This document shows positions 1-18,670 of a stretch of 20,738 bases of DNA, piece after piece. Position numbers and translations under genes: made by a program. Numbering within the stretch: the stretch's first letter is position 1; each line of letters starts with the position of its first letter. The stretch is taken from IMG/VR virus record IMGVR_UViG_3300025407_000157, positions 1 through 20,738 of that record; one strand, given 5' to 3'. This DNA is from a virus. Under the pieces are notes generated by a model that saw only the letters and a list, made by a program, of their open reading frames with translations, made no database searches and was not told the DNA's origin.

Positions 1-2849
1 ATTTAACATTCGTAGCACAAAGTGTAGGTGTAACTACATTAGGTTTAGTGGGTGAGACTTTACAAGGTCCAGCATTCGAACCGATTTTAATTTCGAGTTT
101 TGACAGTTATAAGTCATATTTCGGACCAACTTCTCCTGAAAAAGACGGAGCAAATAATCCAAAATATGAATTAGGATATGTTGCTAAATCTTATTTACAA
201 GAGTCTAATCAACTTTTTGTAACAAGAGTTTTAGGTTTAACAGGATATAATCCAAACAAAACATTTGGTATTGTATCACAAGGTGGTATTTTAGTAGACC
301 ATTTAGAGGAGTATTTAGCAGGAACTTACACAGGTAATACCGCTTCAAACTTTTCATTCAATCCAAATAATCCAACCGCATCAGATATCTATGTAGATTT
401 ATCAGGTGTTACCGCTTATAACGGTATGCCGATTTTAGATTATATTAGTGAAATGTATAGTGGTTTAACAAGTTCAGATTCAGGAAAATGGTTTGCAATT
501 GGTTTTATTCCTGCTGCCGACCCTATTTTTGTATCGTTAAATCGTACAAAAGAACAAGTTTCTCCTTTAACAGGAAAAATTTACACTGAAAATGAAAATA
601 GACAAGAGTGGTATAATACATGTTTCCGTGAATCAGTACCAGGTGACGAAACTACAATTTATGACGTAGCAAGTTATTTGTTCAGATGGACAGGTGGAAC
701 TTCATTTGATGGTGAAAGATTTGAATTCTTAGCAAGTATGGACGCTGACTATGATAATGTTGTAGTTGCAGCTTTAAGATCAAGAGGTCATTATCACCAA
801 GAAAATTTAGTTTTAGAAGTAACACAAAACTCAAATATTTCATTAACAGATACAGGTGGTATTGTATCAAATCCATTAGCAGAATTCCAAATTGATGTTA
901 CAGGTACTACAGGTGGACATAAATCATTCACAATTTCTTTAGATCAAACATCTTCAAAATATATTACTAAAGTTTTGGGAGTTGAGAATTATGACCAATC
1001 ATATGTAGACCATCCGGTTTATGTTCATGAGGTTTATCCTAATTGGTTGAAAAACGCTTTCGAACAAGGTAAAATTAGAGGTTTACAACTTACATATGTT
1101 GTTGATGATGCATCTACTGATTTCATAAAAGAATTTGATACTCCAATGAGTAATACAGTTGTTTCTGAAGTTCGTGGTGGTAAAGTTGACGAGTTGTTTA
1201 ACATTATTACTATTTCGGATGGTGAATCTGCTAACAATCAAGTAAAAATTACAATACAAAATATTAATTTAGATTCAGGTGAATTTGATTTATTAGTACG
1301 TGATTTTAATGATACTGATGATAATATAGTAGTATTAGAAAAATATTCAAGATGTTCAATGAACCCTGATGTTGCAGGATATATTGCAAACAAAATCGGT
1401 ACATCTGATGGTGAATATACATTAAACTCAAAATATATTATGTTGACTATGGCAGATAATGCTCCTGTGGATGCGGTACCTGCTGGTTTTAAAGGATTTA
1501 CAAATAAAAATAGTTTTGGTGACGATAGTAAATTAGGTGCTGTTACATATAAAACAAATTATTTTGACCCAGGTGAAACAATGTATTATAAGCCAGACGG
1601 AACACCAGTTTTGTCAAGTGGTGACAAATATAAGAAAGTATCTTTAGGTTTATCAAGTCAAAATGCATTTACCTATGATAGTGATTTATTGAAGTTTAAA
1701 GGTGTAACTGCATCAGGAACTACAAAAGGTTTCCACTTATCAACAAACGCATCAACAATTACAGGAACAACATACATTACAACTCCATATGATTTAGAAG
1801 GTCAATCTGACCCAACAAATAACAAATTAACAGATATTAACTATCGTAAGTTTACTTTTGCTGCATTTGGTGGTTTTGATGGTTGGGATATCTACAGAAA
1901 TGTAAGAACTAACACCGACCAATATATTTTCAATACTCACACATATATTTCAGGTAATACGAATAACGGTGGTGTATTCAGTTCTACAGTTGGAAATTCG
2001 GATTATTATGCATACTTACAAGGTATTATGACATATCAAAATCCTGAGGCAGTTGATATCAACGTATTTGCTACACCGGGTATTGATTTCTTAAATCATA
2101 GTTCTCTTGTTACTCAAGCAATTGACATGATTGAAAACGATAGGGCCGATTCAATTTATATTATTGGTGCACCAAATGAAACAGATGCATCAAATGTGGT
2201 TGATGATTTGGATTCAGTTTCGATTGATTCTAACTATTCAGCAACATACTGGCCTTGGATACAAATTAGAGATACAGATAATGCAACTCAATTATATATC
2301 CCACCAACAGGTGAAGTTGTTAAGAATATTGCCTTAACTGACAACGTATCTTATCCTTGGTTCGCGGTTGCGGGTTATTCAAGAGGTTTAGTAAATGCAA
2401 TCAAAGCACAAAAGAAATTAACTTTAGACGAAAGAGATAATTTATATAAAAATAGAATCAACCCAATTGCCACTTTCTCTGATACAGGAACAATCATTTG
2501 GGGTAACAAAACTTTACAAGTTAGAGAGTCTGCATTAGACAGAATTAACGTAAGAAGATTGTTATTAAGAGCAAGGAAATTAATTTCCGCAGTTGCAGTA
2601 CGTTTGTTATTTGAACAAAATGATGACCAAGTAAGACAAGAATTCTTAAGATTGGTAAATCCTATCTTAGAAGCAATCAAGAAAGAAAGAGGTTTATATG
2701 ACTTCCGTGTAACTGTATCAAGTGCACCTGAAGATATAGACGCAAACACACTTAGAGGTAAAATCTATGTGAAACCAACTCGTTCTTTAGAATTCATTGA
2801 TTTAGAGTTTGTTATCACTCCAACAGGAGCTTCATTTGAAAATATCTAA
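1..2849 (+). CDS. 18: Tail sheath protein (T4 gp18-like), 5' end outside window
   Basis: This protein forms the contractile sheath around the tail tube. The reading frame is open from base 3 (Leu-Thr-Phe-Val-Ala-Gln...), so the GTG at 48 is not the start and the gene begins upstream; at least 949 residues are present, against 659 in T4 gp18. The last ~130 residues carry the conserved sheath C-terminal domain: a basic helical stretch (INVRRLLLRARKLI), then FEQNDDQVRQEF, a mixed strand region with LRGKIYVKPT and a final EFIDLEFVITP strand. The N-terminal part (GETLQGPAFEPILISSFDSY) matches the usual sheath opening. The extra length lies in the middle and probably forms surface insertions on the sheath. 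The TAA stop is followed within 30 bases by a hairpin terminator. The family call is by recalled resemblance and is strong. Confidence 0.93.
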   Translation, partial: LTFVAQSVGVTTLGLVGETLQGPAFEPILISSFDSYKSYFGPTSPEKDGANNPKYELGYVAKSYLQESNQLFVTRVLGLTGYNPNKTFGIVSQGGILVDHLEEYLAGTYTGNTASNFSFNPNNPTASDIYVDLSGVTAYNGMPILDYISEMYSGLTSSDSGKWFAIGFIPAADPIFVSLNRTKEQVSPLTGKIYTENENRQEWYNTCFRESVPGDETTIYDVASYLFRWTGGTSFDGERFEFLASMDADYDNVVVAALRSRGHYHQENLVLEVTQNSNISLTDTGGIVSNPLAEFQIDVTGTTGGHKSFTISLDQTSSKYITKVLGVENYDQSYVDHPVYVHEVYPNWLKNAFEQGKIRGLQLTYVVDDASTDFIKEFDTPMSNTVVSEVRGGKVDELFNIITISDGESANNQVKITIQNINLDSGEFDLLVRDFNDTDDNIVVLEKYSRCSMNPDVAGYIANKIGTSDGEYTLNSKYIMLTMADNAPVDAVPAGFKGFTNKNSFGDDSKLGAVTYKTNYFDPGETMYYKPDGTPVLSSGDKYKKVSLGLSSQNAFTYDSDLLKFKGVTASGTTKGFHLSTNASTITGTTYITTPYDLEGQSDPTNNKLTDINYRKFTFAAFGGFDGWDIYRNVRTNTDQYIFNTHTYISGNTNNGGVFSSTVGNSDYYAYLQGIMTYQNPEAVDINVFATPGIDFLNHSSLVTQAIDMIENDRADSIYIIGAPNETDASNVVDDLDSVSIDSNYSATYWPWIQIRDTDNATQLYIPPTGEVVKNIALTDNVSYPWFAVAGYSRGLVNAIKAQKKLTLDERDNLYKNRINPIATFSDTGTIIWGNKTLQVRESALDRINVRRLLLRARKLISAVAVRLLFEQNDDQVRQEFLRLVNPILEAIKKERGLYDFRVTVSSAPEDIDANTLRGKIYVKPTRSLEFIDLEFVITPTGASFENI

Positions 2850-2873
2850 TCTAAAAGGAGATATAAAAAAGAG

Positions 2874-2903
2874 AAAGGAGGGTAGAAATACCTTCCTTTT
2901 TTT
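2874..2903 (+). terminator. Rho-independent terminator after tail sheath
   Basis: An 11-bp stem (2874-2884 with 2889-2899, one G-U pair) closed by a GAAA tetraloop runs straight into a T-run ending at 2903. It lies 25 bases after the sheath stop codon and separates sheath from tube transcription. The AAGGAGGG in its left arm looks like a Shine-Dalgarno sequence, but no start codon follows it at useful spacing. Confidence 0.88.
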
Positions 2904-2908
2904 ATTAA

Positions 2909-2926
2909 ATGTTCCACGTGGAACAT
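2909..2926. promoter_or_regulatory. parS-like 18-bp perfect palindrome (candidate ParB-binding site)
   Basis: ATGTTCCACGTGGAACAT is a perfect 18-bp palindrome. Its inner 16 bases, TGTTCCACGTGGAACA, fit the bacterial chromosomal parS pattern TGTTnCACGTGnAACA; Pseudomonas-type parS sites have this core. ParB binds such sites as a dimer, loads CTP and spreads along DNA. The match is seen directly; binding by a host or phage ParB is inference. No parA or parB gene lies in the window. A phage repressor operator is the main alternative. Confidence 0.62.
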
Positions 2927-2932
2927 ATTTTC

Positions 2933-2944
2933 CCAGTATACTGG
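2933..2944. repeat. 12-bp palindrome CCAGTATACTGG
   Basis: This perfect 12-bp palindrome starts 6 bases after the parS-like site. Its left half (CCCAGTATA, 2932-2940) also has an inverted copy TATACTGGG at 3014-3022, so it could pair locally or across 73 bases, or serve as an operator with a distant half-site. Confidence 0.7.
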
Positions 2945-2950
2945 TATATT

Positions 2951-3016
2951 CTGGAACCGGTTATTAAAGTATTTATATTATATATTATATTAAAGTAGTA
3001 AACTGGAACTGGTTAT
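2951..3016. repeat. Direct repeats CTGGAACYGGTTAT (x2) and ATTAAAGTA (x2)
   Basis: CTGGAACCGGTTAT at 2951-2964 recurs as CTGGAACTGGTTAT at 3003-3016 (one mismatch in 14), offset 52 bases or about five helical turns. ATTAAAGTA occurs at 2963-2971 and 2989-2997. The hexamer TGGAAC inside the long repeat also forms half of the parS-like palindrome (2919-2924), giving three copies in line. They look like iterons or operator half-sites. Confidence 0.6.
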
Positions 3017-3048
3017 ACTGGGTGACTGTAAAAAACTACGGAAAATTT

Positions 3049-3075
3049 TTGACAAAATCAAGTATTTCGTATAAT
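3049..3075 (+). promoter_or_regulatory. Sigma70-like promoter pair upstream of tail tube
   Basis: TTGACA (3049-3054) and TATAAT (3070-3075) are both exact consensus hexamers, but the spacer is 15 bases, shorter than the preferred 17. Transcription would start near 3082, giving a leader of about 75 bases before the tube ATG. Bacteroidetes primary sigma factors favour a different pattern (TTG / TAnnTTTG), so use by the suggested host is uncertain. Confidence 0.38.
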
Positions 3076-3155
3076 ATCTTAAAAAAAAATTATTTTCTAA
3101 TATTGTTATATTTATAAGAAAGTAAATAATACAAAAAAAACTTAACTAATACAAC

Positions 3156-3644
3156 ATGGCAGATTTACTAATGAAAATGCCGGTTCCTTACGAACCGAAA
3201 AGAGTCAACCGATTTATACTAAGATTCCCATCATCTTTGGGTATCAACGAATGGTATGTACAATCGGCTGCAAGACCTAAAGCTAAAATTAACGTTACTC
3301 CAATTCCGTTTTTAAATACATCAACTTATGTTGCAGGTAGATTTGAGTGGGAAACTATGAACGTAGTATTCAGAGATCCAATTGGACCATCTGCAGCTCA
3401 AGCACTTATGGAATGGTTCCGTTTACATGCAGAATCTGTTACAGGTCGTATGGGTTATGCTGCTGGTTATAAGAAGGATGTAGAATTAGAATTATTAGAC
3501 CCAACAGGTGTAGTAGTTGAAAAATGGATTTTACAAGGTACTTTCTTATCTGATTTGGATTTCCAAAACTTAGATTACTCAGACGATAAATTGGCTACTA
3601 TCCAAGCTACTTTAAGAATGGATAGATGTATCTTAGTATACTAA
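3156..3644 (+). CDS. 19: Tail tube protein (T4 gp19-like)
   Basis: This is the subunit of the rigid inner tail tube through which DNA passes. It has 162 residues, almost the same as T4 gp19 (163). Recognisable features are the opening MPVPYEPKRVNRFILRFP, the strand FEWETMNVVFRDPIGPSAAQALMEWF, and the closing DLDFQNLDYSDDKLATIQ followed by ATLRMDRCILVY, all typical of myovirus tube proteins. It starts after an A/T-rich leader with no Shine-Dalgarno sequence; the next in-frame Met (residue 6) is less likely to be the start because family members begin with a short leader before the MPVP-like segment. It is a single-gene unit, bounded by a terminator on each side. In T4 the portal gene follows gp19; here the tail assembly genes follow instead. 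Confidence 0.95.
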   Translation: MADLLMKMPVPYEPKRVNRFILRFPSSLGINEWYVQSAARPKAKINVTPIPFLNTSTYVAGRFEWETMNVVFRDPIGPSAAQALMEWFRLHAESVTGRMGYAAGYKKDVELELLDPTGVVVEKWILQGTFLSDLDFQNLDYSDDKLATIQATLRMDRCILVY

Positions 3645-6580: not shown

Positions 6581-6594
6581 ATTAATCTATTTAT
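6581..6594 (+). repeat. Intergenic 14-mer ATTAATCTATTTAT, copy 2
   Basis: Identical to 4628-4641. It continues as ATTAAAATACAATA up to the ATG at 6609. The core TATTTATA (6588-6595) recurs at 17432-17439 with nearly the same distance to the next ATG (13 versus 12 bases between motif and ATG) and at 3109-3116 in the tube leader. Confidence 0.55.
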
Positions 6595-6608
6595 ATTAAA
6601 ATACAATA

Positions 6609-17431: not shown

Positions 17432-17439
17432 TATTTATA
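17432..17439 (+). promoter_or_regulatory. TATTTATA late-promoter-like element
   Basis: TATTTATA ends 12 bases before the ATG at 17452. The same octamer lies in the gaps before 6609 and 3156, and TATTTATT before 4648. It differs from the T4 late -10 (TATAAATA) at two central positions on this strand; its reverse complement is exactly TATAAATA. Function is unproven, since such octamers are not rare in AT-rich DNA. Confidence 0.35.
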
Positions 17440-17658: not shown

Positions 17659-18315
17659 ATGTTAGAACAAAAATTACAAGAAGAATTAAATCGTTACAAA
17701 GCCATTAACACATATGGTAAAACGATGATAATGGAACAAGCAGCACCTCCTCCACCGGCACCTGAAGATGCACCGGCGCCAGACGCGGGAGCACCTGCAC
17801 CTGACGCAGGAACTCCACCGGTAGACCCAACAGCAGGAGCTGCACCAACAGACCCAAGTGCACCAGCACCTGCGGGAGCTTTACCTGAATCTGATACACA
17901 AGAATTAGATATTACTGATTTAGTTGATATGACAAAAAGTATCAAAAAAGATTTGGAATCACATACACAAGACAATAGTTCTGTTATGAATAAAATGGAT
18001 GATGTTTTTACTAAACTTAATGATTTAGAATTAAAACTTGGTGAAATGAATCAAGTTATTTCTAAGATTGATGAGTTAGGTGCTAAGATTGAACAAATGA
18101 AACCAGAAACTCCTGTTGAAAAATTGGAAATGCGTTCATTAGATTCATATCCATTTAATCAAAATCCTAAGGAGTTTTTCAATCACAAACAAGATGAGAT
18201 GAGAAAAACAGGTAAAAACGAGTATGTTTTAACTAAAGATGATGTAACAAATTACGATTCACAAATAAACAAGTCATTTAATCCTCAGGAAGAAGAAGAT
18301 GAATATAGGTTCTAA
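17659..18315 (+). CDS. Pro/Ala-rich linker and coiled-coil protein, unknown function
   Basis: This 218-residue protein has three parts. Residues 1-27 form a charged helix. Residues 28-75 are almost only Pro, Ala, Asp, Gly and Thr with PAPDAGAPAPDAG-type repeats, an extended flexible linker. Residues ~82-147 form a predicted coiled coil with heptad-spaced Leu/Ile/Val/Met (DLVDMTKSIKKDLE, MNKMDDVFTKLNDLELKLGE, QVISKIDELGAKIEQM). The acidic C-terminus contains SYPFNQNPKEFF and ends in EEEDEYRF. It suits a multimeric virion or assembly scaffold component, but no family was recognised. The linker DNA is markedly richer in G and C than the rest of the window. Its end overlaps the next gene by 17 bases, so the two are likely translationally coupled. 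Confidence 0.72.
   Translation: MLEQKLQEELNRYKAINTYGKTMIMEQAAPPPPAPEDAPAPDAGAPAPDAGTPPVDPTAGAAPTDPSAPAPAGALPESDTQELDITDLVDMTKSIKKDLESHTQDNSSVMNKMDDVFTKLNDLELKLGEMNQVISKIDELGAKIEQMKPETPVEKLEMRSLDSYPFNQNPKEFFNHKQDEMRKTGKNEYVLTKDDVTNYDSQINKSFNPQEEEDEYRF
17740..17883 (+). repeat. GC-rich low-complexity Pro/Ala/Asp codon tract
   Basis: This tract encodes the PAPDAG-like linker of the coiled-coil protein. It is locally GC-rich in an AT-rich window because Pro, Ala, Gly and Asp codons dominate. It creates open frames on the opposite strand that are not genes. Confidence 0.75.
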
Positions 18316-18670
18316 AATAAAGTTCTTAATAGAACTTCAAAATCAAACTAAAATTAATCATTGGCAAACTAAAAGTTATGCGAGACATAAAGCATTTGAC
18401 AAACTTTTTGATGGTTTAATTGATTTGACGGATACTTTCGCAGAAGCGGCAATGGGAAAATATGGTAGATTTAAATTAGAAGAAGATGATAAAACAATCA
18501 ATCTTGTCAATTTAGGTGAATTGGATTTAAAAGAAATGTTAGAAACTTCTAAAGATGCTTTAATTCAATGGACCGAAGAATTTGACCCTAAAGATACTGA
18601 TTTAATGAATATCCGTGATGAAATTTTGGGATTACTTAATAAAATAACATATCTATTAACATTAGAATAA
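18299..18670 (+). CDS. Dps/ferritin-like four-helix protein
   Basis: This 123-residue all-helical protein has the Dps ferroxidase-type pattern: INHWQTKSYARHKAFDKLFD then GLIDLTDTFAEAAMG. His21, His30, Asp34, Asp45 and Glu49 line up with the H-H-D-D-E iron ligands of Dps. The spacings His30-Asp34 (4), Asp34-Asp45 (11) and Asp45-Glu49 (4) are as in Dps; only the first interval is three residues shorter (9 instead of 12). Two more helices follow (DLKEMLETSKDALIQWTEEF; MNIRDEILGLLNKITYLLTL). It is shorter than typical Dps (about 150-170). Dps stores iron and protects DNA from oxidation; in phages the role is unknown and it could be purely structural. The start overlaps the preceding gene by 17 bases, so it is read from the same late transcript. 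Confidence 0.66.
   Translation: MNIGSKIKFLIELQNQTKINHWQTKSYARHKAFDKLFDGLIDLTDTFAEAAMGKYGRFKLEEDDKTINLVNLGELDLKEMLETSKDALIQWTEEFDPKDTDLMNIRDEILGLLNKITYLLTLE

Follow-up and report, generated by a model that had tools for sequence, protein, structure and literature searches.

The spacer between the tail sheath and tail tube genes of a phage of the T4-like group contains a perfect 18-bp palindrome with the sequence of a bacterial chromosomal parS. We consider it somewhat better than an even chance (a probability of about 0.55) that this is a host parS carried by the phage, which would serve to recruit the ParB protein of its host. The DNA analyzed, termed the window throughout, is the whole stretch of 20,738 nucleotides of the IMG/VR record IMGVR_UViG_3300025407_000157.

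A chromosomal-type parS in the sheath-tube spacer

The palindrome ATGTTCCACGTGGAACAT occupies positions 2909 to 2926 and is perfect over exactly 18 bp. Its 16-bp core, TGTTCCACGTGGAACA at 2910 to 2925, is an exact parS of the chromosomal type, for which the consensus is TGTTNCACGTGNAACA. When the window (70% A+T) is modeled as a first-order Markov chain, the exact 16-mer is expected 2.5e-6 times and the consensus 7.6e-5 times. The palindrome is the sole match to the consensus with two or fewer mismatches in the whole 20,738-base record. The initial annotation of this DNA had pointed to a perfect palindrome with a parS core, to the improbability of a 16-base match arising by chance and to its location in a long gene-free stretch, and had proposed a search for further copies. 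All three claims hold, the stretch being the longest between the main ORFs of the window in the ORF list, and the search gave no second match.

The spacer is 306 nt in length. It is preceded by the tail sheath gene (48 to 2849, plus strand; phrog_23, E = 1.4e-58), whose true start possibly lies beyond the window, and followed by the tail tube gene (3156 to 3644, plus strand; phrog_4542, E = 8.4e-25). With these two genes on its sides the site lacks neighboring parA and parB genes. A ParABS cassette of a phage-plasmid was considered and rejected, given that the sheath and tube genes adjoin the site and that the window has no match to PF02195 or TIGR00180. The sheath gene is followed by an intrinsic terminator (2873 to 2905, plus strand), assigned by RNA folding, with a 12-bp stem, a GAAA loop and a U-run. 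The stem (2873 to 2900) folds with −16.2 kcal/mol and z = −4.43, and a scan for consensus terminators gave no report of this hairpin. There are 8 nt between the terminator stem and the palindrome.

Several other elements lie between the palindrome and the tube gene. An A+T-rich array of CTRG-type (CTAG or CTGG) units at 2932 to 3022 was recognized by eye, and a search confirmed that the motifs bounding it, CCCAGTATA and TATACTGGG, are present. By eye, its units change rapidly and its architecture is kept in many relatives. The array might serve as an origin or as a region with multiple sites for a regulator; GC skew of a 288-kb relative indicates no clear origin near the parS-like site. In that relative the string CCCAGTAT has a single spacer copy, which is located here, and one other copy inside a gene for a ParB-like protein. 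The block GTAAAAAACTACGGAAAATTTTTGACAAAATCAAG at 3028 to 3062 is similar in many relatives and includes a promoter-like TTGACA at 3049. It comprises ACTACG and an imperfect palindrome TTGAC-N3-RTCAA, and occurs even where a relative is without the parS-like site, as in L052 and L075. The octamer TATTTATA (3109 to 3116, plus strand), identified by comparison with relatives, is probably the late promoter for the tail tube gene. Of 47 representative relatives, 45 have it 40 to 56 nt upstream of the tube start, and we take its reverse complement to be the T4 late motif TATAAATA. The same octamer precedes gene starts at 6588 to 6595 and 17432 to 17439 of the window, and in Flavobacterium phage immuto it is found upstream of both sheath and tube genes. 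An Rfam search of 2800 to 3300 gave three matches at E ≤ 1, all far under their gathering scores. Elsewhere in the late region (18299 to 18670) there is a small protein matching phrog_858, starvation-inducible transcriptional regulator, which is presumably Dps-like.

Conservation of the site in tail-tube relatives

Four scans of IMG/VR for the tail tube yielded 261 loci. A tube start is recognizable in 257 of them (4 were dropped), and 242 of these have at least 345 nt upstream (15 dropped). Collapsing duplicates left 121 distinct spacers. A parS-like site was defined as a 16-mer agreeing with that of the window at 12 or more of the 16 positions. By this measure 66 of the 121 distinct relatives have a site in the sheath-tube spacer, compared with 1 of 121 after each spacer was shuffled, and in the relatives it lies about 240 to 340 nt upstream of the tube start. 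Six further relatives have a site in the next spacer, downstream of the tube gene (searched from +470 to +640 relative to the tube start). The remaining 49 have no detected site in either spacer beside the tube gene, one of these loci being too short for the second spacer. These 49 would be expected if the palindrome had arisen by chance and lacked function, but that is contradicted by the conservation of the site among relatives, by its presence in the next spacer of six others and by the very low number of copies expected in the window, so we regard it as highly improbable.

The 66 sites comprise 31 distinct sequences. G2, T4 and A13 are invariant in all 31, and C6, A7 and C15 are each kept in 30. 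The most variable positions are 1/16, 9 and 10. Positions 5/12 exchange C with T and G with A, which is the degeneracy of TGTTNCACGTGNAACA. The center is ACGT in 26 of the 66 sites and ACAT or ATGT in 14; the other 26 have ACAA, ACGA, ACGC or ACGG (25 in all) or GTGT (1). At least one intact half-site, GTTCCAC or GTTTCAC, is present in 62 of the 66; among the 55 spacers that have no site, 2 contain one. On a tree of the tube gene the ACGT center is scattered over several separate places, as are ACAT, ACAA and ACGA. The initial annotation had held that absence or free divergence of the palindrome in close relatives would speak against a parS. The relatives divide on this: the same spacer keeps a site in more than half, but the ACGT center is altered in 40 of 66 and no site is found in 49 of 121, so that absence and divergence are both seen in part.

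Three large records (288, 233 and 310 kb) have one exact copy each, and their other matches carry two mismatches. No such palindrome was seen in the spacers before the tube genes of Flavobacterium phage immuto, Microcystis phage Mel-JY01 and RM378, nor in the 400 nt upstream of the LR756508 tube gene, the sheath gene of LR756508 being located elsewhere. Across 50 kb of immuto and 50 kb of Mel-JY01 there are 3 and 11 matches to TGTTNCACGTGNAACA, respectively, all with two or three mismatches. Some loci are unusual in other respects. The gap between sheath and tube genes is about 1.0 to 2.0 kb in L016, L017, L021, L024 and L063, compared with the usual 0.3 kb or so, and these therefore have extra DNA between the two genes; our guess is that it consists of homing-endonuclease-like inserts. 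L063, counted among the 49, has two matches at 14 of 16 positions, some 1.8 kb ahead of the tube gene and beyond the inserted DNA. In L474 and L517 the sequence upstream of the site also looks different.

Half-site symmetry and placement behind terminators

The palindrome might act as RNA, for example as a second terminator or a structure at a 3′ end. As RNA it folds with −8.4 kcal/mol and z = −3.2, a T-rich stretch often follows the site (by eye), and in L075, one of the relatives with the site in the next spacer, it caps a terminator-like stem, lying at the apex (by eye). Yet a much stronger hairpin is already present upstream, and pairing is not kept among the relatives. The inner stem (pairs 2 to 6) is complete in 22 of the 31 distinct sites on the plus strand and 24 on the minus strand, an inner pair being broken in 9 and 7 respectively. 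Changes at 3/14 and 5/12 hit either half, causing mismatches on one strand or the other, and A7 and C8, which would be in the loop, are conserved nearly as well as the stem. An intrinsic terminator or other RNA hairpin was thus rejected as a candidate, and we attach little probability to an RNA element. Because the substitutions strike both halves and the would-be loop is conserved, a symmetric protein bound to duplex DNA is the preferred reading of these sequences.

The site also has a characteristic position. In 56 of the 66 spacers it is located 5 to 41 nt downstream of a terminator-like stem, compared with 186 of 1320 random positions in the same spacers. The sites in the next spacer were inspected by eye. 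Those of L421 and L422 come directly after a terminator-like stretch, and those of L442, L481 and L482 follow one by some tens of nucleotides. Among contigs without similarity to the tail proteins of the window, L084, L090 and L161 have an exact site after a hairpin and T-run (by eye), and in L145 the exact site is no more than 6 nt after a gene matching a virion structural family.

The motif in Bacteroidota chromosomes and the probable host

The 16-bp sequence of the phage site is present in all nine chosen Bacteroidota genomes. With up to one mismatch it is matched in 40 of 41 Bacteroidota genomes, with 114 forward matches compared with 24 for a reversed control (summed by hand), so the earlier description of the motif as chromosome-type was well founded. 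Among the matches listed, sites occur as pairs 1.88 to 2.02 kb apart in 12 Bacteroidota genomes, chromosomal sites fetched with the 16-mer cluster, and a ParB is encoded in 21 of 116 chromosomal stretches around the motif, not dereplicated; of these 21, 16 were assigned by record title, and none of the 16 is from Bacteroidota. Variants were compared in 17 Bacteroidota and 63 other chromosomal loci, sorted by record title. Among the matches listed the Bacteroidota sites vary at 1/16 and 5/12. Changes at 3/14, which are present in phage sites, are absent among the chromosomal variants of all 17 and 63 loci.

The centers were examined in 395 genomes. Of 60 matches with an A-center, counted by hand, 34 have ACAT, and AA, AC and AG account for 12, 7 and 7, with 31 matches for the reversed control. 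In G049 and G050 an ACAT center belongs to one member of a 1.9-kb pair. Centers ACGA, ACGC and ACGG gave 19 matches, compared with 50 for the reversed control. Judged from these matches, Bacteroidota chromosomes tolerate the ACAT/ATGT center that 14 of the 66 phage sites have, but show the centers ACAA, ACGA, ACGC and ACGG (25 of 66) at about background level. The phage sites therefore resemble the chromosomal parS of the Bacteroidota ParABS system in the 16-bp sequence itself, in variation at 1/16 and 5/12 and in the ACAT center. They differ in that the phage site is single, parAB does not adjoin it, and many relatives have only one good half-site.

Half-sites have a precedent. According to the passages of PMC7022226 that treat them, the half-parS GTTCCAC/GTTTCAC is bound by several ParBs including that of Pseudomonas aeruginosa, in which such binding yields narrow peaks only, and 9 of the 19 ParBs considered show no half-parS binding. 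The heptamer in most of the phage sites is of this kind; the phage sites differ from the half-parS of those passages in retaining a recognizable second half and a typical location. With their intact half-sites, the phage sites with altered centers could be weaker ParB sites from which the protein does not spread, or sites for another protein.

One such protein would be a regulator encoded by the phage, binding symmetrically to TGTTCCAC-NN-GGAACA upstream of the tube promoter and controlling the late region, the likeness to parS being a coincidence. Symmetric half-sites with a loose center are typical of repressor operators, the site is present as a single copy in a spacer ahead of a probable promoter, and 25 of the 66 centers are not those of Bacteroidota chromosomes. 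Nevertheless six relatives have the site after the tube gene and not before it, its place is close behind terminators and some 240 to 340 nt ahead of the tube start, the window sequence is an exact parS, and phages of other hosts also have parS-type palindromes. We therefore regard an operator as a rather unlikely explanation, and return to the binding of host ParB.

The identity of the host bears on this. Shine-Dalgarno-like motifs precede 1 of 11 genes in the window and 14 of 232 in the 288-kb relative; the corresponding values are 3 of 35 for immuto, 14 of 37 for Mel-JY01 and 12 of 17 for phi29. Bacteroidota typically lack Shine-Dalgarno sites, so that their scarcity points to a host of this phylum. 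By tube identity the nearest cultured phages infect Microcystis first and then Flavobacterium, with Rhodothermus also among the nearest, and the assignment is therefore probable rather than certain. On these sequences the phage group probably infects Bacteroidota.

ParB and ParA candidates in the phages

ParB_N (PF02195) was matched in none of 12 and none of 7 family records, i.e. none of 19 including the window, many of them fragments. It was likewise absent from 21 other contigs with exact sites, again many of them fragments, among which L111 is a family member. TIGR00180 matched below cut-off in 2 of 9 family records, and this led to a ParB-like protein of 251 amino acids. Three of 23 family records, the majority of the 23 being fragments, encode this protein. 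They are the 288-, 233- and 310-kb records, the first two with an identical protein, and in the 288-kb relative its gene is at 903 to 1655 of L333 on the minus strand. It has kin in phages of Flavobacterium, Enterococcus and Streptococcus. The search for parA- and parB-like genes that the initial annotation proposed thus gave no canonical ParB in the 19 records, of which many are fragments, and a remote ParB-like protein in three of 23.

The site might be a centromere for this protein. The perfect 16-mer is present in all three records that encode it, it matches the PHROG of ParB-like partition proteins with E = 6e-22, and a Foldseek search with its predicted model places KorB, ParB and Noc on top. 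The model is weak, however (pLDDT 65), and the top ten structures have TM scores (query) of 0.24 to 0.29 and rmsd of 11 to 16 Å. The Pfam ParB_N match has E = 0.088, under the cut-off, and in profile comparison with 21 bacterial ParBs the alignment is restricted to residues 24 to 71 in the N-domain, outside the helix-turn-helix that reads parS. Moreover the protein was not found in G003 and G008, which are shorter records with a perfect site. Flavobacterium phage lillamy encodes a relative of it, and no parS match there exceeds 12 of 16 in 28.6 of its 38.3 kb. Neither motif nor phmmer searches gave a ParA-like ORF in the 288-kb record, the sole record searched for ParA. A centromere for a phage-encoded ParB consequently seems improbable to us, and recruitment of host ParB remains the preferred reading.

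parS-type sites in other phages and mobile elements

Among 50,697 named phage records, 191 matched a 30-nt query around the site, and for 86 the identity was at least 99%. An evenly spread listing of 60 has 27 at this level, of which, counted by hand, 11 cover the whole 16-mer and 26 the inner 14 bp GTTCCACGTGGAAC. The first of two scrambled palindrome controls matched 20 phage records, none at ≥99%. The second matched 22, with 19 at ≥99%; the seven of these that were listed all consist of half the palindrome plus flank, from one type of Vibrio phage. Among virus contigs TGTTCCACNNGGAACA has the GT center in 58 of 121 and AT in 31, and TGTTTCACNNGAAACA has GT in 86 of 143 and AT in 30, in each case among the matches listed, which were not dereplicated and may include prophages with host flanks.

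Individual phages provide examples. The genome of phi29 (EU771092) has four copies of TGTTCCACGTGAAACA, three of them inside genes and one 3 nt downstream of an annotated Rho-independent terminator. In the Pseudomonas phage phiPsa374 (Otagovirus) TGTTCCACGTGAAACA is in the direct terminal repeat (L520, 3003 to 3018), and related records match too. Pseudomonas phage XD2 has two parS-type sites within 6 kb of its sequence, and Mycobacterium phage Bane2 has one that differs at a single position. In Klebsiella jumbo phages the exact 16-mer is inside a baseplate gene; PMC7022226 describes Enterobacteriaceae as lacking chromosomal par genes, so not every phage match can be functional. Two further observations concern multiple copies. 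L118 has two exact parS copies at 1505 and 1802 (297 bp apart), and encodes a distant relative of the 1930-aa protein of the window. The virus contigs L572, L622 and L561 have three to five exact copies of TGTTTCACGTGAAACA, and may represent host flank or phage-plasmids.

The use of a host parS by a phage has precedent in phi29 and Spo0J. PMC9437464 recounts, with reference to Meijer et al. (2005, EMBO J), that Spo0A stops the lytic development of phi29, which lets Spo0J trap the phage chromosome in the spore. It too is a virulent phage with host-type parS, one of its sites is directly behind a terminator, and its record has no ParABS annotated. The present phages differ in having a single site in a spacer, where those of phi29 are mostly intragenic (3 of 4), and in belonging to a T4-like group whose host is probably of the Bacteroidota. 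Bacteroidota are not known to make spores. A second parallel is SGI1, a mobile element whose parS-like sites use the ParABS of IncC plasmids (PMC10954446), thereby borrowing the ParB of another replicon. SGI1 differs in that its parS and the ParB are plasmid-type and not chromosomal, and in having two copies.

Discussion

The initial annotation had suggested that the phage may recruit ParB, either that of its host or its own. The parS sequence, its conservation in the same spacer, the use of the motif by Bacteroidota and the lack of a canonical ParB in the 19, often fragmentary, records of the family all favor recruitment of the host protein, but the altered centers (40 of 66) and the relatives without a site (49 of 121) do not. 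Silencing of neighboring late genes and titration of host ParB, which the initial annotation had named among the possible roles, look the same as segregation at the level of sequence. It had also noted that it knew of no T4-like phage described with such a site, and none was found in the literature searched, with subscription journals largely outside its coverage. What sets these phages apart is a single transcription-sheltered site that many members of a large T4-like group have kept, with half-good versions in many relatives. That many members of the group carry a host-type site suggests that they borrow host ParB.

ParB loads at parS as a CTP clamp and slides. In the mechanism we propose, a dimer of host ParB would bind the phage palindrome, as a copy of the chromosomal parS of the host, during infection, and would then load as a CTP clamp and slide onto the adjacent phage DNA. 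The phage would keep one such site in untranslated DNA right after a strong late-gene terminator, where elongating RNA polymerase should rarely pass. The phage genome could thereby be tied to the ParA and SMC segregation machinery of the host, and be held with the nucleoid or shared between daughter cells while lysis is delayed, in slow growth or a carrier state. The use of Spo0J by phi29 for entry into the spore would be a parallel. We infer that segregation or anchoring in a slow infection is the most likely use; the identity of the host, the binding and loading of its ParB and the benefit to the phage are all putative.

More tentatively, borrowed centromeres might be widespread. Many unrelated virulent phages would then keep one or a few copies of a host parS, the T4-like group of Bacteroidota having a single transcription-sheltered site, and host ParB, ParA and SMC would partition or shelter the genome in a delayed infection. 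On present evidence we rate this broader idea as possible, and rather less probable than recruitment in the group itself.

The sites provide natural sets of full, center-altered and half sites for research on ParB. If our reading is true, virulent phages far from sporulating Bacillus would also use the chromosome-segregation machinery of their hosts, and host parS in phage spacers would be a cheap computational signature for finding more cases and for linking phages to hosts. It would also provide a testable account of how the genomes of lytic phages persist in slow-growing aquatic bacteria.
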